Source of the DNA: a virus
Reading direction: 5' to 3' (one strand)
DNA: 33,280 nucleotides
Virus record (IMG/VR): IMGVR_UViG_3300045999_002064
Coordinates: 1 to 33,280 of that record
Part shown: piece after piece, positions 13,383 to 26,279 of the stretch
How the letters are laid out: each line of letters opens with the position of its first letter
Numbering within the stretch: the stretch's first letter is position 1
Position numbers and translations under genes: made by a program
The notes under the pieces: generated by a model
Databases searched by the model: none
What the model was told of the DNA's origin: nothing
What the model saw: only the letters and a program-made list of their open reading frames with translations

Positions 13383-14864
13383 ATGCCTTACATCAAGCTG
13401 CAGATCCCGCCAGGCGTCTACCGTAACGGCACCGAATATCAGTCGGCTGGCCGGTATTACGACGCCTCTCTCGTTCGCTGGTACGAGGGCACCATGCGCC
13501 CGGTTGGCGGGTGGCGCAAGCGTTCCAATTCACAGATGACTGGCGCCTGCCGCGGCTTTCTGAACTGGCGCGACAACGCTGGGAACCGCTGGATTGCTGC
13601 TGGCACGCATTCCAAGCTGTACGCCATGAATGAGGCGGGCACTCTTAAAGATATCACCCCGACAGGTTTCACGGCTGGATCAGCGGACGGCGTGAGCAAG
13701 GTCGGCTACGGCTATGGCCCTTACGGCGCCTATGCTTACGGCGTGGCGCGCCCTGATACCGGCAGCTTTACACCGGCCACCACCTGGAGCCTGGATACCT
13801 GGGGCGAGTACATGGTGGGCTGCTCCAACTCTGACGGCAAGCTCTACGAGTGGCAGCTAGGTTTTTCCACGCCCACCCTGGCCGCTGCGATCACGAACGC
13901 GCCCACGGGTAACGAGGCGGTAATGACCACGTCGGAGAGGTTCGTTTTCGCTCTGGGCGCGGGTGGCAACACCCGTAAGGTGGCCTGGTGCGATCAGGAA
14001 GACAATACGGTATGGACGCCGGCGGCGGATAACCAGGCCGGCGATTTTGAGCTGACGACTGTGGGCGACATCAAGTGCGGCAAACGCATTCGCGGCCTGT
14101 CGATCATCTTTACTGACGTGGATGTACATACGGCGACCTATGTGGGTTTACCCTATGTGTACTCGTTTGAGAAGGTCGGCTCGGCCTGCGGGGTGATTTC
14201 CTCGCAAGCCGTGGCGGCGATTGAGACGGCTGCGGTCTGGATGTCGCGCTCCGGCTTCTGGATTTATGACGGATACGTCAAGCCTCTGCCGTGCGACGTA
14301 TCAGATTTCGTCTTCCAGGACATCAACAACGCGCAGGCCAGCAAGATCTACGCGGTCAATAATTCCAAGTACGGCGAGATCTGGTGGTTCTACCCGTCGG
14401 CCTCCTCAACGGAAAATGATTCTTACGTTGTATATAACTACCGCGAGAACCATTGGGCTATTGGCGATCTGGCGCGTACTGCCGGAACCGACCGCGGTGT
14501 GTTCGCTAACCCACTTATGGTGTCTTCTGACGGATATATCTACGAGCACGAGGTGGGCTACGCCTACGATTCGGCGGTGCCTTTTGCCGAGTCCGGCCCG
14601 GTCGAGCTGGGCAACGGCGATCAGACGATGAGCGTGCGCCAGTTGATCCCGGACGAGCAGACGCTGGGCGAGGTCCAGGTCTCCTTTAAGGTGCGTCAGT
14701 ACCCGATGTCCACCGAGACGACATACGGCCCGTATACCGCATCGCAGCCCACCGATGTGCGCTTTTCTGGCCGCCAGGTCAAGGTTCGCTACACCGGGGC
14801 GGTGCTGGACGATTGGCGTGTCGGCGTGCCTCGGATGGAGGCGATTGCAGCCGGTGGCCGTTAA
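13383..14864 (+). CDS. Tail nozzle/hub-like protein (possible P22 gp10-type)
   Basis: A 493-residue all-beta protein. After PPGVYRNGTEYQSAGRYYD it has recurring blade-like units, for example RWIAAGTHSKLYAMNEAGTL, WGEYMVGCSNSDGKLYEWQL, RFVFALGAG and AVWMSRSGFWIYDGYVKPLP, which suggest a beta propeller of about six blades. Phage tail accessory factors of the P22 gp10 type and T7-like nozzles have this build and close the tail channel. Similarity is in pattern rather than long identical motifs, so the exact class is uncertain. A YGYGPYGAYAYG stretch echoes the Gly/Tyr motif in the protein at 7979. Its stop overlaps the next ATG (TAATG). Confidence 0.72.
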   Translation: MPYIKLQIPPGVYRNGTEYQSAGRYYDASLVRWYEGTMRPVGGWRKRSNSQMTGACRGFLNWRDNAGNRWIAAGTHSKLYAMNEAGTLKDITPTGFTAGSADGVSKVGYGYGPYGAYAYGVARPDTGSFTPATTWSLDTWGEYMVGCSNSDGKLYEWQLGFSTPTLAAAITNAPTGNEAVMTTSERFVFALGAGGNTRKVAWCDQEDNTVWTPAADNQAGDFELTTVGDIKCGKRIRGLSIIFTDVDVHTATYVGLPYVYSFEKVGSACGVISSQAVAAIETAAVWMSRSGFWIYDGYVKPLPCDVSDFVFQDINNAQASKIYAVNNSKYGEIWWFYPSASSTENDSYVVYNYRENHWAIGDLARTAGTDRGVFANPLMVSSDGYIYEHEVGYAYDSAVPFAESGPVELGNGDQTMSVRQLIPDEQTLGEVQVSFKVRQYPMSTETTYGPYTASQPTDVRFSGRQVKVRYTGAVLDDWRVGVPRMEAIAAGGR

Positions 14865-22416: not shown

Positions 22417-23193
22417 ATGGCCGACTACATCATCCCCACACCGCGTAATCCCATTCTGGGATTGCTTGCCGATGCCATGATGGGCGGCCTCGCCTACATG
22501 GAAGACCCGCGGCGCACGCAGCAGATGCGCGGCGTCGGCGGCCTGTTGTCGGAGACTCGCATTCCCCAACTCGTGGAGCGTCTGGCTTATGGCGAGCCAC
22601 TGACCACTGGCAAAGGGATGACCACCCGCCTGCATCCAGATGCCGAGGCGGCTCTTCTAACTCTGGGGCCGGAGGCTGTGCCGATTGGCCGTGGAGCAGC
22701 GGCGGCAGTGAGGGCCACGAAGGGACTGCCGGTGGGCGCGAGTATTAAACCAGTTGCAAAACAGGTTGACGATTTTTCTTATCGTGGCTCACACACTGCG
22801 CCAGGCCCCGATTTTGGCGCGCCTTTGCATGATCTAACTGGCGGCGGACAAATGTATCCGGCGGATGTGTATTCAGGCAACGCTGTCCGTTACTACGGAA
22901 CCGGGTATCCGACTGCTGACAGAGAAGCGTTTTCTCTTGCAAACAGGGTGAGGAATAAACCTGATGCAATTGTGACGGCGTACAGGGCCGTGCCAAACGA
23001 CCCAAAAATCACATCAATAAATCAAGGCGATTGGGTCACCTTGAGCAAGGATTACGCAAAACAACACGGCGAATCTGTGCTCGGGAAAGATTACAAAATC
23101 ATCGCAGAAAAAGTAAAAGCTAAAGAGCTGTACACAAACGCAGACTCGATCCATGAATTTGGGTATTGGCCTGCAGGCCTCCTCGGCCGCTAA
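22417..23193 (+). CDS. Two-part phage protein with probable C-terminal ADP-ribosyltransferase domain
   Basis: A 258-residue protein. Residues 1-105 form a constant-looking N-terminal module (PRNPILGLLADAMMGGLAYM and VERLAYGEPLTTGKGMTTRL) that I recall at the front of phage proteins with varied C-termini. After a linker, residues 120-252 read as an ADP-ribosyltransferase fold of the R-S-E type: R190 in VTAYRAVP, S210 in DWVTLSKDYAKQHG, and E247 in SIHEFGYWP. SYRGSHTAPGPDFGAPLHDL is the conserved lead-in. The C-terminal half is visibly richer in A+T than the N-terminal half, suggesting a swapped domain. It is the last late gene; it may be carried in the virion and modify a host protein. The catalytic assignment is inference. 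Confidence 0.68.
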   Translation: MADYIIPTPRNPILGLLADAMMGGLAYMEDPRRTQQMRGVGGLLSETRIPQLVERLAYGEPLTTGKGMTTRLHPDAEAALLTLGPEAVPIGRGAAAAVRATKGLPVGASIKPVAKQVDDFSYRGSHTAPGPDFGAPLHDLTGGGQMYPADVYSGNAVRYYGTGYPTADREAFSLANRVRNKPDAIVTAYRAVPNDPKITSINQGDWVTLSKDYAKQHGESVLGKDYKIIAEKVKAKELYTNADSIHEFGYWPAGLLGR

Positions 23194-23900
23194 CGCGCCC
23201 TGCGCTTAATCAACTCCATCACCGCGGCATCGCCAGCCTGGGCCTCGGTCGGCGCGAACAGCGCCCTGCTCCTCTCAGCCGCGCCCTTGCGGGGTTCGCA
23301 AAGGTAGTACACCGCCAGCGACTTGCGGTGCTGCCCCGGCGGGCAGGTGATCGGCTCGGGCAGGCCGTGCCAGGCGTTCGTCGTGTCAAAAAGTACCGCC
23401 CGATTGAACATCGGCGCGATAGATTTGACCAGCTCGCCGGGCTTGCCGCCATCATCGCGCCACAGCCCCAGCGATCCGCCCCAGGACTTATGCCACCCGG
23501 CATTGAGATACACGATCAGATTGAGCCTGCGCTCGAGGCCCAGCTTGGGGTGGATGCTGTAGTCCAGATGCGTGTTCAAGCGGCCGCCCGCGCCGTGGAT
23601 GTGCAGACCGCCGCCATGCAAGCCGTGATCCGGGTACAGCTTGCAGTTCGTGAGGCGCTCGAAAATGCGATAGCACTCGCGGGAATTGATGTCGGTGAAG
23701 AACTTGTACAGCGCCGGCGAGAAGTGGTGCCAATTGTTGAGCGTCTTTTTCACCTCGATGGCGTTGTCGTAGGTATGCCAGACGGGGCTGTCGTAATCGG
23801 GGAAGTCTGCGGCCAGCTCGTGCGCCAGCTCGTCGTCGAAGAAGTTGTCCAGCACCAGGTGCGGGAACGGATCAAGGCTGCCCCAGTGGTTAGCGGTCAT
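23190..23900 (-). CDS. 2OG-Fe(II) oxygenase (prolyl hydroxylase-like)
   Basis: A 236-residue protein of the 2-oxoglutarate/iron dioxygenase superfamily. LNTHLDYSIHPKLGLERRLN supplies the HxD pair (H111, D113), NAWHGLPEP the distal His (H178), and PGQHRKSLAVYYL the Arg that binds 2-oxoglutarate (R192). NLIVYLNAGW and GGSLGLWRDD are typical core strands. The best relatives are prolyl hydroxylase-like enzymes; the substrate could be a virion protein, a host protein or a sugar. It is the last gene of the leftward operon, coupled to the RuvC-like gene by an ATGA overlap. Its stop overlaps the stop of the converging late operon. Confidence 0.87.
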   Translation of the reverse strand: MTANHWGSLDPFPHLVLDNFFDDELAHELAADFPDYDSPVWHTYDNAIEVKKTLNNWHHFSPALYKFFTDINSRECYRIFERLTNCKLYPDHGLHGGGLHIHGAGGRLNTHLDYSIHPKLGLERRLNLIVYLNAGWHKSWGGSLGLWRDDGGKPGELVKSIAPMFNRAVLFDTTNAWHGLPEPITCPPGQHRKSLAVYYLCEPRKGAAERSRALFAPTEAQAGDAAVMELIKRRAR

Positions 23901-24364
23901 TGCTGCTTCGCACCATAAAGAGCGATCAGGGCGGCATCGGAGCGGCCGTCGTCCTTCACGCGAGAGAACAGTGCGGCCTCGTCTGGGAACAGTTGGGCCG
24001 CGCGGTAGCGGCTGCCGTCCTTACCCTGGGGCACGTCCAGCGCCTTCTGCCAGGTGCGCGGCGGGATCGTCGTGGTGGGCACCTCGCAGGCGGCGAGCAC
24101 CCCGAGAACGACGCCAAGGGATTGCCCCATCGAAAACATACTGGTGACGCCCTGACCCGGCATCGCGTTCAGGCGCTCAAGGTAGGCGGCATCCGCCTTA
24201 GCGTCACGGATGATTGTGTGCAGCGTATGCGCATTGACCATGCGCTTGGTCTTGTTGTTCCGTTCCAGCGACAGGGTGGGCATATCGTGGACCTGCAGCA
24301 GCTTGCCGTCTTCAATCAGCGCGATGGCGCCGTTCAGCCCCACGTCGATGCCAAGAACCCTCAC
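23897..24364 (-). CDS. RuvC-like Holliday junction resolvase
   Basis: A 155-residue RNase H-fold nuclease. The four acidic sites of the RuvC class can be placed: D7 in VLGIDVGLNGAIAL, E63 in YLERLNAMPGQGV, and D139/D143 in DDGRSDAALIALYG. TSMFSMGQSLGVVLGVL is the conserved helix after the second acid. The size is normal. In phages such enzymes cut branched replication intermediates before packaging. It sits between the HTH regulator and the oxygenase, with 4-base overlaps on both sides. Confidence 0.9.
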   Translation of the reverse strand: MRVLGIDVGLNGAIALIEDGKLLQVHDMPTLSLERNNKTKRMVNAHTLHTIIRDAKADAAYLERLNAMPGQGVTSMFSMGQSLGVVLGVLAACEVPTTTIPPRTWQKALDVPQGKDGSRYRAAQLFPDEAALFSRVKDDGRSDAALIALYGAKQQ

Positions 24365-24606
24365 GCCTTGCCCACCGCGGCATCCATCGCCTCAGAGAGC
24401 GATTTCATCCTCGCGGCTATCAGGGCATCAACCGCCTCTTCCAAGCGCCTCACGGACCCGTATAGGGGCTCCGTGGCCCCACTGGACCAGCGGCTCACCT
24501 GGGCCTGGTCGATCTCGGCCACGCGGCACACGTCCGAGAGGCGAAAGCCGGCGGACTGCGCCTTTTCCCTGATGCTTAAAATTGCTTGCTGTGCGTGAGT
24601 TGTCAT
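24361..24606 (-). CDS. Helix-turn-helix regulator (XRE-like)
   Basis: An 81-residue protein. Residues about 20-46 form a Cro/CI-type helix-turn-helix: FRLSDVCRVAEIDQAQVSRW, where VSRW is the typical end of the recognition helix. A helical C-terminal part (VRRLEEAVDALIAARM) may dimerise. It heads the leftward operon. The ATG lies only 8 bases after a -10-like TAGAAT box and has no Shine-Dalgarno sequence, so the message may be leaderless, as for lambda cI from PRM. Two matching dyads in the region beside it are its likely binding sites. Confidence 0.82.
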   Translation of the reverse strand: MTTHAQQAILSIREKAQSAGFRLSDVCRVAEIDQAQVSRWSSGATEPLYGSVRRLEEAVDALIAARMKSLSEAMDAAVGKA

Positions 24607-24613
24607 GCGTAGA

Positions 24614-24643
24614 ATTCTAAGGCCGTAATGACTAGGCGGTCAA
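24614..24643 (-). promoter_or_regulatory. Sigma70-like promoter for the HTH operon
   Basis: Reading leftward: TTGACC (-35, 24643-24638), an 18-base spacer, TAGAAT (-10, 24619-24614). The start point expected about 7 bases on falls at or next to the ATG of the regulator (24606). The -35 box overlaps the dyad at 24628-24643, so binding there would block it. Confidence 0.6.
24628..24643. promoter_or_regulatory. Operator-like dyad 1, ATGAC-N6-GTCAA
   Basis: ATGACTAGGCGGTCAA: half-sites ATGAC and GTCAA with a 6-base spacer. One mismatch from the second dyad at 24786-24801 in the half-sites, identical spacing. It covers the -35 region of the regulator promoter, the usual place for autorepression. 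Confidence 0.6.
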
Positions 24644-24650
24644 CGCAGAC

Positions 24651-24680
24651 AAAAAAGGGGCGAGGTGTGATCCCCGCCCC
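24651..24680 (-). terminator. Leftward intrinsic terminator upstream of the HTH gene
   Basis: Read leftward, GGGGCGGGG and CCTCGCCCC pair over 9 bp (one G-U) around a 6-base loop ATCACA, followed by six T. On the other strand the same pair would be an A-C mismatch, so the structure fits the leftward RNA only. It ends any transcript from the promoter at 24774-24801 before the regulator gene. Confidence 0.88.
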
Positions 24681-24768
24681 GAAGGATGGCAACTGCGGGG
24701 AGACACCGCAGCGGGAGGCGGGTAACTGACAACCACCTCCGGGATTGATTCTACCGGGGCAATACCCG
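24651..24768 (-). ncRNA. Candidate small RNA (about 118 nt) between divergent promoter and terminator
   Basis: A leftward promoter (-35 at 24801-24796, -10 at 24779-24774) predicts a start near 24768, and the terminator ends at 24651. In between there is no credible reading frame but four hairpins in the leftward RNA: CGGG/CCCG (24768-24765 with 24758-24755), GGAGGTGG/CCGCCTCC (24740-24733 with 24721-24714, 8 bp with one G-U), CTGCGG/CCGCAG (24711-24706 with 24698-24693), and the terminator. In hairpins 2 and 4 the non-Watson-Crick pair is G-U only on this strand. It could instead be an attenuated leader of the regulator operon. Confidence 0.6.
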
Positions 24769-24773
24769 ACTAA

Positions 24774-24801
24774 ATTGTAGGGTAGTTGACAGGTTCGTCA
24801 A
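24774..24801 (-). promoter_or_regulatory. Leftward sigma70-like promoter (candidate sRNA promoter)
   Basis: Read leftward: TTGACG (24801-24796), 16-base spacer, TACAAT (24779-24774). Its -35 box is one arm of the dyad at 24786-24801 and lies back to back with the -35 of the rightward promoter. Confidence 0.65.
24786..24801. promoter_or_regulatory. Operator-like dyad 2, TTGAC-N6-GTCAA
   Basis: TTGACAGGTTCGTCAA: perfect half-sites TTGAC and GTCAA with 6 bases between. The two arms are also the -35 boxes of the two divergent promoters, so a bound protein would cover both. It is 158 bp from dyad 1. Confidence 0.6.
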
Positions 24802-24813
24802 TTGTTGTATGAT
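24786..24813 (+). promoter_or_regulatory. Rightward early promoter, TTGACA-16-TATGAT
   Basis: Consensus -35 TTGACA (24786-24791), 16-base spacer, TATGAT -10 (24808-24813). The start should be near 24820, giving a leader of about 28 bases before the first early gene at 24848. It is the strongest promoter-like sequence I see in the window and the natural start of the early operon. Confidence 0.82.
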
Positions 24814-24824
24814 TCGCTCATCAA

Positions 24825-24838
24825 CAACGCAAACGGAG
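24825..24838 (+). repeat. 14-base leader repeat, copy 1
   Basis: CAACGCAAACGGAG lies just before the start of the gene at 24848 and is repeated exactly at 25487-25500 before the gene at 25507. It includes the GGAG ribosome site. Confidence 0.8.
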
Positions 24839-24847
24839 CAAACGCAA

Positions 24848-25033
24848 ATGACCAAGACCATCAACCTGTACGAAGTGCGCTACTACCCCGCTGGTTCCGC
24901 TGTGAGCCGCAACGTCAGCAGCAAGTGCCGCATCCTGCCGTACCGCCGTGCGCTGGCTGTGATCCGCCGCCTGAAAAAGGCCGGTGTGGATGCAGTGATC
25001 GGTTCCCCCTGGCGCGTCAACGTCGCCGCCTAA
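24848..25033 (+). CDS. Small basic early protein (61 aa)
   Basis: A 61-residue basic protein beginning MTKTINLYEVRYYPAGSAVS, with a helical middle (PYRRALAVIRRLKKAGVDAV) and a short final strand. It resembles small beta-helix-beta proteins of phage early regions; no function known to me. The ATG at 24848 is used because the upstream in-frame start at 24809 lies within the -10 box and would not be transcribed. GGAG lies 9 bases upstream. It is the first gene after the early promoter, a position often held by host-takeover proteins. Confidence 0.7.
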   Translation: MTKTINLYEVRYYPAGSAVSRNVSSKCRILPYRRALAVIRRLKKAGVDAVIGSPWRVNVAA

Positions 25034-25040
25034 CCACCCC

Positions 25041-25059
25041 GCCCGGCCCAGCGCCGGGC
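25041..25059 (+). other. GC-rich hairpin after the first early gene
   Basis: GCCCGG and CCGGGC pair around a 7-base loop 7 bases after the stop at 25033. There is no T-run, so it is not an intrinsic terminator; it may protect the 3' end of a processed message or limit read-through. Confidence 0.4.
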
Positions 25060-25081
25060 ACCTTCAACCAGGAGAACGCAA

Positions 25082-25510
25082 ATGAGGTCGCAAAGAAATC
25101 ATGGTCATTCTCATACGCCGGTGTACTACGTGTGGCAGGCAATGATTCGTCGATGCCACAAAGAGAAAGACCCATCCTTCCCGCGTTATGGTGGAAAGGG
25201 AATCAAGGTGTGTGAAGAATGGAGATCTTCTTTTTTGCAGTTCATGCAGGACGTTGGGCCAAGGCCTGACGGGTTGACGCTTGATCGAATCAATTCGGCT
25301 GGTAATTATGAGCCTGGGAATGTTCGATGGGCGACATATAAACAGCAAGCGAGAAACACTTCGCGGAATCATTTGCACACCATTGATGGCGTAACGCGAT
25401 GTCTTGCTGAATGGTGTGAGGTTCTCAATGAGCCTTGGACGACTGTAAAAAAAAGAGTGGCTGCAGGTAAAGATCCCTTTGAACGTCAACGCAAACGGAG
25501 AACAAAATGA
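25082..25510 (+). CDS. HNH-type homing endonuclease-like protein
   Basis: A 142-residue basic protein. RYGGKGIKVCEEWRSSFLQF and LTLDRINSAGNYEPGNVRWAT (residues about 75-95) are the signature of phage-borne HNH-like endonucleases (LDRI..xGNYEPGNxRWA) followed by QQARNTSRN. The C-terminal 45 residues (TIDGVTRCLAEWCEVLNEPW) look like a small DNA-binding repeat. The gene is clearly richer in A+T than its neighbours. It has its own GGAG site and ends by ATGA overlap with the next gene. It is flanked by near-repeats of the ribosome site and start, as expected for a mobile insertion between two genes. Confidence 0.85.
   Translation: MRSQRNHGHSHTPVYYVWQAMIRRCHKEKDPSFPRYGGKGIKVCEEWRSSFLQFMQDVGPRPDGLTLDRINSAGNYEPGNVRWATYKQQARNTSRNHLHTIDGVTRCLAEWCEVLNEPWTTVKKRVAAGKDPFERQRKRRTK
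25487..25500 (+). repeat. 14-base leader repeat, copy 2
   Basis: CAACGCAAACGGAG, identical to 24825-24838. Here it codes for the last residues of the HNH protein while also serving as the leader and ribosome site of the gene at 25507. Confidence 0.8.
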
Positions 25511-25695
25511 ACACACAACACAGCAATTACACGGGACGCTTCCATCGCACTATCGAAAGCGCCTTCGGCCCCTACGCCCGAGGCGGCATCTATGAGAAGC
25601 CCAGCGAGTTCACCATTGCCGACAAGGTGATCACTGGTCTGTCCGGCGTGATCCTGTTCGCCCTCCTCCTCGCAATCCTCACGGGGGTGATCTAA
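25507..25695 (+). CDS. Small membrane protein (62 aa)
   Basis: A 62-residue protein. The soluble first half is NYTGRFHRTIESAFGPYARG, a motif I recall from small early membrane proteins of several proteobacterial phages. One membrane helix follows (VITGLSGVILFALLLAIL). Function unknown; proteins of this build may act at the inner membrane early in infection. GGAG lies 6 bases upstream, and the ATG overlaps the HNH stop. Confidence 0.7.
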   Translation: MNTQHSNYTGRFHRTIESAFGPYARGGIYEKPSEFTIADKVITGLSGVILFALLLAILTGVI

Positions 25696-25941
25696 ATGCA
25701 CGACAAGCTAAACGGCGAGATCGACAAGATCGTCGCGGAGATGGCACCGCCCGTTAACTCCATCGGGATGCTGGCCACCGACGATGTGGTGCGCATCGTG
25801 CGCCAAGCAGCCACCCGCGGGGCAATGGCCGGATGGGTCGCTGGCGAGCGCACGGCGCGCGCTCACTGGGGCCGCGAGATCGACAAGCTGCGCGAGCGCA
25901 TTAAAGAGCTGGAGATGGATCAGATTGCGGGGGCCAAGTGA
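25696..25941 (+). CDS. Small early helical protein (81 aa)
   Basis: An 81-residue protein, mostly helical, with a central ATDDVVRIVRQAATRGAMAG segment and a charged C-terminal coil (GREIDKLRERIKELEMDQ). It starts directly after the previous stop and overlaps the next by 4 bases. No family function recognised. Confidence 0.65.
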   Translation: MHDKLNGEIDKIVAEMAPPVNSIGMLATDDVVRIVRQAATRGAMAGWVAGERTARAHWGREIDKLRERIKELEMDQIAGAK

Positions 25942-26279
25942 AGCGCGCCATCGCCACCGCTGCGCTCGTGGCGCTATGCGCTACGGCGCACGCTGAGTTC
26001 TGGGACGGCAACAAGTTGCACAACCATCTGAACGGCAGCACCGGCGAGCAGTTGCTCGGCTTGGGCTACGTGATGGGCGTTGCGGACGCACTGCAGCACA
26101 TTACGTTCTGCCCGCCAAGCAACGTCACCGCGGGGCAGGTGCGCGACATGGTGGCCAACTACTTGAGCAACGTGCCAGCCGACCGCCACCTCACTGCCGA
26201 AGCGCTGATAAACAAGGTGCTCAAGGGCGTCTGGCCTTGTGCGCAGCGGCCGGCCGCGCCGAGCGGGAGGTCGCTATGA
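25938..26279 (+). CDS. Secreted Rap1a/Tai-like protein
   Basis: A 113-residue protein with a clear signal peptide (MKRAIATAALVALCATAHA, cleavage after AHA). The mature part has FWDGNKLHNHLNG, LLGLGYVMGVADAL, FCPPSNVTAGQVRDMVANYL and a final VWPC, with two Cys (in FCPP and WPC) that probably form a disulfide. This is the pattern of the Rap1a/Tai immunity family, known from type VI secretion immunity proteins of Serratia and common in phages and plasmids. In a phage it might shield the infected cell from periplasmic toxins, but the role here is inference. GTG start with GTGA overlap. Confidence 0.82.
   Translation: MKRAIATAALVALCATAHAEFWDGNKLHNHLNGSTGEQLLGLGYVMGVADALQHITFCPPSNVTAGQVRDMVANYLSNVPADRHLTAEALINKVLKGVWPCAQRPAAPSGRSL

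Follow-up and report, generated by a model that had tools for sequence, protein, structure and literature searches.

A 240-base control cassette is kept across a family of uncultivated phages, which come mostly from freshwater. The cassette is likely to be a switch in which one XRE-fold protein shuts off the early genes and represses its own synthesis via three operators (O1 to O3), and which also holds a separate small RNA unit. The initial annotation had one small repressor governing three units. Here, comparison of relatives supports this well for its own operon and the early operon. For the small RNA, repressor control is a less certain possibility.

The window, which is the whole stretch of DNA that was analysed, is a 33,280-base viral record of a tailed phage. 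Genes for an SU10-type portal, scaffold, capsid and endolysin lie to the left of the early region, which itself extends to the right and includes an HNH endonuclease, a DUF2800/PD-(D/E)XK exonuclease, a C5 DNA methyltransferase and a primase-helicase-like gene. The leftward genes at 23190-24606 encode a 2OG-Fe(II) oxygenase, a RuvC-like Holliday junction resolvase and the 81-residue regulator (24361-24606, minus strand), whose ATG coincides with the predicted start of transcription or directly follows it. The resolvase is next in the regulator operon (23897-24364, minus strand; phrog_1770, E 7e-31) and a homologue follows the regulator in all 76 of 76 loci, in 73 of them at most 300 nt from the regulator start. 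The oxygenase (23190-23900), downstream of RuvC, is less widely kept and was seen in 24 loci (70 had enough sequence).

On the early side, the first gene (24848-25033, plus strand) encodes 61 residues and belongs to PHROG 26216, of unknown function. With start codons chosen automatically, the gene in this position differs widely among relatives. An HNH endonuclease gene (phrog_3377, 25082-25510) lies between the first early gene and a small membrane-protein-like gene at 25507, a relative of which is itself the first gene in loci such as L008. Similar CGCAAACGGAG leader motifs occur at the joints.

The XRE-like character of the regulator, proposed from the sequence of the window, was borne out by its predicted fold and by comparison. 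The AlphaFold model (pLDDT 91.6) has four helices only, arranged in a Cro/CI-type helix-turn-helix (HTH) fold, and no cleavage or oligomerisation domain is present in the 81-residue predicted structure. Matches to XRE, C-protein and P22 c2 folds have TM scores of 0.5-0.64, with the best bacterial Z-scores at 5.8-7.0. The nearest bacterial folds are the prophage protein 3b7h, ClgR, C.Esp1396I, C.AhdI and DdrO (Z 5.9-7); these Z-scores are moderate and are equalled by those of eukaryotic POU/HNF-1 domains. The absence of a family from the fold-comparison list was not counted as evidence. The Pfam profiles HTH_31, HTH_3 and HTH_26 match the regulator at E 0.01-0.04, under the curated cut-off. The HTH is nearly invariant among relatives and its recognition helix, QAQVSRW, is identical across the 12 window-family proteins aligned and in both of the clades described next.

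To obtain relatives, IMG/VR was scanned with the regulator, giving 144 matching stretches, and the best 80 of the 144 were taken as loci. An additional sub-clade was recovered by profile search. The resulting comparison set consists of 83 distinct 300-nt cassettes beside regulator relatives. These fall into a near clade of 35 cassettes, with regulators roughly 72% identical or more, and a distant clade of 48, with regulators mostly 63-68% identical; the criterion that divides the two is the right arm of the regulator-promoter dyad. A pattern-based search for near relatives of the regulator found none in GTDB species genomes or genome contigs. Among GenBank phages there is one distant homologue, in a phage with the same portal type (MW202879).

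A promoter scan of the sequence recovered the three sigma-70-like promoters that had been described previously, and these are the only such hits within 23800-26200. The regulator promoter (24614-24643, minus strand) consists of a -35 TTGACC (24643-24638), an 18-bp spacer and a -10 TAGAAT (24619-24614), and scores 10/12. In near-clade and distant-clade cassettes alike, with few exceptions, the end of the -10 is 7 nt from the ATG, so that the regulator mRNA is probably leaderless. In the distant clade, -37 is still the best-scoring position of the regulator promoter. There, a highly conserved block, ACAAAACATGGTTAACAT, covers the -10 (for example, L035 4961-5003) and may be a further binding site; this block is overlapped by an ATG that lies upstream and in frame (MVNI...).

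Operator O1 lies over the regulator -35, exactly where the first dyad was initially placed (24628-24643), and reads TTGAC-N6-GTCAT on the minus strand (ATGACTAGGCGGTCAA). Both arms are kept in all 35 near-clade cassettes, always 37 bp before the ATG, with TTGAC at -37 to -33 and GTCA at -26 to -23 invariant. The six interior bases vary, giving 12 distinct 16-mers in the near clade, and one group has a perfect 14-bp palindrome, TGACTTGCAAGTCA, at this position. As the right arm sits in the promoter spacer, where a promoter needs little, it is most simply read as an operator arm. In the distant clade this arm has decayed, with MACAA in place of GTCAA, despite the identical recognition helix. It is the one part of the dyads that is lost where the regulator is kept, an outcome that had been named in advance as counting against the operators.

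The early promoter, TTGACA-16-TATGAT (24786-24813, plus strand), scores 11/12. Most cassettes keep a -35 of TTGAC/T, a -10 of TATGAT or TATTAT and a 16-bp spacer. O2, the central dyad, covers the -35 (24786-24801; TTGACAGGTTCGTCAA) and is present with the same 6-base gap as reported. The two dyads described at the outset are real, but the set was incomplete. A third dyad, O3, which reads ATGAT-N6-ATCAA, lies over the -10 and +1 of the early promoter (24809-24824; ATGATTCGCTCATCAA), 23 bp centre to centre from O2. Its left arm accounts for an invariant TGA near +1 and its right arm overlaps the -10. The three sites share the form WTGAY-N6-RTCAW, and the third one, at the early promoter, strengthens the one-repressor idea.

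The evidence for O2 and O3 comes from a position weight matrix built from O1 sites only. Among 121 offsets, O2 (offset 0) and O3 (-23) rank first and second in both clades, with z-scores of 4.6 and 3.5 in one clade and 4.8 and 3.8 in the other. Of the 8 core bases, O3 retains 7 or 8 in 33 of 33 near-clade cassettes. The search of relatives for dyads beside the regulator, which the initial annotation had called for, yields one or more early-promoter operators in both clades in addition to the near-clade O1. The arms of O2 and O3 overlap promoter hexamers, which accounts for some of their conservation; independent of the hexamers are the left arms of O3 (in the +1 region) and of O2. The O2 left arm is TTGCA or similar in about one third of near-clade cassettes. 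A tandem pair of sites with this 23-bp spacing, one over the -35 and one over the -10, is the layout of a cooperatively binding repressor, as in lambda-type operators, and by this analogy the regulator probably binds O2 and O3 cooperatively.

The core TGAC-N6-GTCA occurs four times in the 33 kb, compared with 0.38 expected, and none of 100 shuffles reaches four. The copies at 14266 and 32834 were rejected as operators, being in coding frames (DGYVK in a virion protein and DLIVID in the primase-helicase), and further dyads in the window and relatives are likewise coding coincidences (DGYVK, DSYV, DLIVID). With a combined matrix, the five best sites in the window include O1, O2 and O3, and the other two are coding coincidences. 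A weak, tentative fourth dyad-like element, CCTAC-N6-GTCGG (24766-24781, minus-strand reading), lies over the small RNA -35 region, at an offset of +20 in the near clade (z 2.2) and +32 in the distant clade (z 1.8). It may explain only in part a conserved AGTCRRSTATT block at 24761-24771 (minus strand), between the central dyad and the small RNA -10. The conserved AATA-N3-GACT block was considered, on grounds of resemblance only, as a promoter for a T7-like RNA polymerase, and this reading was dropped; among the window ORFs examined, no phage RNA polymerase was recognised.

The separation of O1 and O2 had been taken to suit DNA looping, with 158 bp being close to a whole number of helical turns. 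Near-clade distances are 150, 152, 156, 158, 159, 162, 165, 166, 167 and 178 bp, so that the window has one value in a spread. A Rayleigh test of helical phase gives p of about 0.6 on distinct distances, and about 0.02 when every cassette is counted and related ones are thus repeated. Since the spacing is neither conserved nor restricted to one helical phase, looping at a fixed phase is unsupported and was rejected.

Between the two promoters lies a predicted small RNA (24651-24741, minus strand), which consists of one or more hairpins, a GUUGCC linker and an intrinsic terminator with a T6 run; its start is approximate and is taken from the conserved -10. The terminator (24651-24680, hairpin 24680-24657) is strong, and its pairs are conserved with compensatory changes in relatives. 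It would insulate the regulator gene from leftward transcription. The hairpin, the linker and the terminator hairpin with its T run are found in nearly all cassettes, with the linker altered in L005 and L006. In 61 of 61 distinct segments the hairpin retains its outer four pairs, versus 29% in shuffles, with the stem position picked for best pairing in data and shuffles alike. Compensatory exchanges here are CG/GC and GC/TA/CG. For the window copy, folding is better than in shuffles by 4.1 sd. No Rfam 15 family matches the window at the curated score. The candidate small RNA of the initial annotation is thus well supported as an RNA element by its conservation and covariation; the promoter assigned to it fares less well.

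That promoter, TTGACG-16-TACAAT (24774-24801, minus strand; 10/12), takes its -35 from the central dyad, whose arms were proposed to be the -35 boxes of back-to-back promoters. The rightward box is conserved, but the leftward promoter is poorly conserved and therefore doubtful. Its TACAAT hexamer is kept in only 1 of 35 near-clade cassettes, 11 of which have lost T6, and 12-bp insertions in some distant-clade cassettes break the TTGACG-TACAAT spacing, whereas a downstream TAGAAT/TAAACT/TACAAT element persists. The small RNA -10 is more likely to be this element, TAGAAT at 24748-24753 (minus strand) in the window, which is TAGAAT, GATAAT or CATAAT in the near clade and TAAACT or TACAAT in the distant clade. 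It has no clear -35. The earlier promoter is a possible alternative.

The lack of a good -35 is what would be expected if the regulator were a dual regulator, repressing the early promoter and activating the small RNA promoter from the central dyad, much as lambda CI is both repressor and activator at PR/PRM. Here, about 52 bp separate the dyad centre from the predicted RNA start downstream of it, or 64 bp where the 12-bp insertion, about one helical turn, is present. Against activation, the distance varies and the intervening segment is lost in L037, L040 and L043, making this at best a tentative alternative to the preferred reading of repression.

It is also conceivable, though we doubt it, that the leftward element is a mere terminator, with a conserved stem that prevents read-through into the regulator gene. 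The most conserved core adjoins the terminator, no conserved target is found in either flanking mRNA, and the same GCAGTTGCC-terminator combination exists in other phages, free of the regulator and upstream of another gene. What a terminator would not explain is the retention of the GUUGCC linker, of an upstream -10 and of a distinct 5' hairpin in which compensatory changes have occurred. These features favour a separate small RNA, for which base pairing via GUUGCC is the simplest guess.

A seed search around gene starts in the window and in ten related genomes turned up no target common to all of them. Pairing with the virion gene starts AUGGCAAC (15231 and 17236) was rejected, as relatives with a changed linker retain the same gene start, and pairing with the regulator mRNA or the early leader is hardly above shuffled or swapped controls. 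Separately, about 30 contigs carry GCAGTTGCC and a terminator without the regulator. In L216, L218, L234, L242, L244 and L271, which are other aquatic phages, GCAGTTGCC-TTT-terminator resembles the 3' half of the small RNA and is followed, a few tens of nt downstream, by a different small gene, the product of which starts MAYENQKDVADFISTLLHSGTVTHFMHL or similar, with no regulator nearby. A more ambitious proposal is that the cassette holds an undescribed family of phage small RNAs inside an early switch that has no integrase, co-controlled by the repressor and acting in trans on host or phage mRNAs through GUUGCC, with the recurrence of linker and terminator pointing to a shared target. This is speculative and we would put it forward as a possibility of modest weight.

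In the mechanism that we favour, the regulator would bind WTGAY-N6-RTCAW as a dimer. As it accumulates, it would fill the tandem O2 (-35) and O3 (-10/+1), probably cooperatively, and early transcription would be turned off. By binding O1, which covers the -35 of its leaderless promoter, the regulator would limit its own level and that of the co-transcribed RuvC resolvase. The separate leftward unit between the promoters would produce a structured small RNA of 60-100 nt, the strong terminator of which insulates the regulator gene.

The same parts could instead form the lysogeny switch of an unintegrated plasmid phage, with the regulator as a CI-like maintenance repressor that silences the early operon during the carrier state. 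The tandem operators, set 23 bp apart, and the probably leaderless repressor gene do resemble the immunity regions of lambdoid and telomere phages. However, as in the initial annotation, no integrase was seen: no tyrosine integrase was found in 20 records, several of them 30-36 kb although possibly incomplete, and no serine recombinase in the window or the ten IMG/VR relatives searched. In addition, the regulator is small and has no cleavage or oligomerisation domain, and the near-relative search of GTDB species genomes was negative. The one partition-like gene recognised, at 22417-23193 beside the leftward operon, matches the PHROG 'ParB C-terminal domain' (phrog_2579, residues 112-252), a label of ambiguous sense, and its product could be a different catalytic domain. 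Taken together, a lysogeny switch is unlikely. It is very improbable that the dyads amount to no more than conserved -35 and -10 hexamers facing each other, read by no protein as operators: the O1 left arm and the O2 and O3 right arms (in the minus-strand reading) do coincide with hexamers, but the O1 right and O3 left arms lie outside them and show little or no variation in the near clade, and the 6-bp gap is the same at three sites.

Early-phase control in uncultivated aquatic phages is largely unknown. The cassette supplies a consensus for the operator, a repressor system of one protein and three predicted sites, and an RNA element without an Rfam match; its parts can be tested by reporters in E. 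coli. A fixed control module joined to exchangeable first early genes forms a natural 'docking site', which is a place to look for small host-takeover genes.

The GenBank relative, Caudoviricetes sp. ctjtQ328 (MW202879, Manatee Spring), has a regulator that is 42-43% identical and a portal that is 63% identical. Its regulator matches Pfam HTH at E 9e-5, likewise under the curated cut-off, and a -10-like TAAAAT lies about 7 nt before its ATG, as in the cassette. It differs in having a short intergenic region, in which no small RNA segment or matching dyads were seen, and a serine resolvase-family gene.

Among well-studied systems, lambda OR has a small HTH repressor and tandem dyad operators over an early promoter between divergent genes, and lambda OOP is a short, terminated, leftward RNA beside a repressor-controlled region. 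The small RNA is likewise short, terminated, leftward and beside such a region, but it differs from OOP in sequence and structure, has no Rfam match and is, as far as seen, not antisense to a neighbouring gene. In PY54 (immB), the cI and cro mRNAs are reported to be leaderless (PMC4488713). The cassette shares with lambda OR and PY54 immB a small HTH repressor, a promoter pair between divergent genes and dyad operators in tandem about 23 bp apart over the early promoter (here by sequence only), and with PY54 a leaderless repressor mRNA (here predicted). In contrast to the lambdoid and telomere phages, a single regulator is present, with no CI/Cro pair, cleavage domain or integrase seen, and a terminated small RNA gene lies between the promoters. 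A literature search found no paper joining a leaderless phage repressor with a small RNA.

The C proteins of restriction-modification systems are the other point of reference, and Esp1396I has a second C-protein binding site at another promoter. C.Esp1396I, C.AhdI and C.PvuII share with the regulator an XRE fold of about 80 residues and a dyad at their own promoter, through which self-regulation is predicted here as well, although identity to C.Esp1396I is about 10% over the aligned fold. C-protein genes have leaderless transcripts, as the regulator gene may also have, and C-boxes are defined as two adjacent dyads, GACT-N3-AGTC or CTAAG-N5-CTTAG, at their own promoter (PMC4824078). The paired C.PvuII-type boxes, GACT-N3-AGTC, correspond to GAC-N5-GTC, whereas the cassette has GAC-N6-GTC, single at the regulator gene, and the endonuclease that is co-transcribed in C-protein systems is replaced by a RuvC resolvase downstream. 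As the C-box form, endonuclease, integrase and cleavable domain are absent, the cassette belongs neither to the Cro/lambda-type lysogeny systems nor to the C-protein systems. Nonetheless, the best reading of the sequence is that the regulator acts in the manner of Cro or a C protein, shutting off the early genes.
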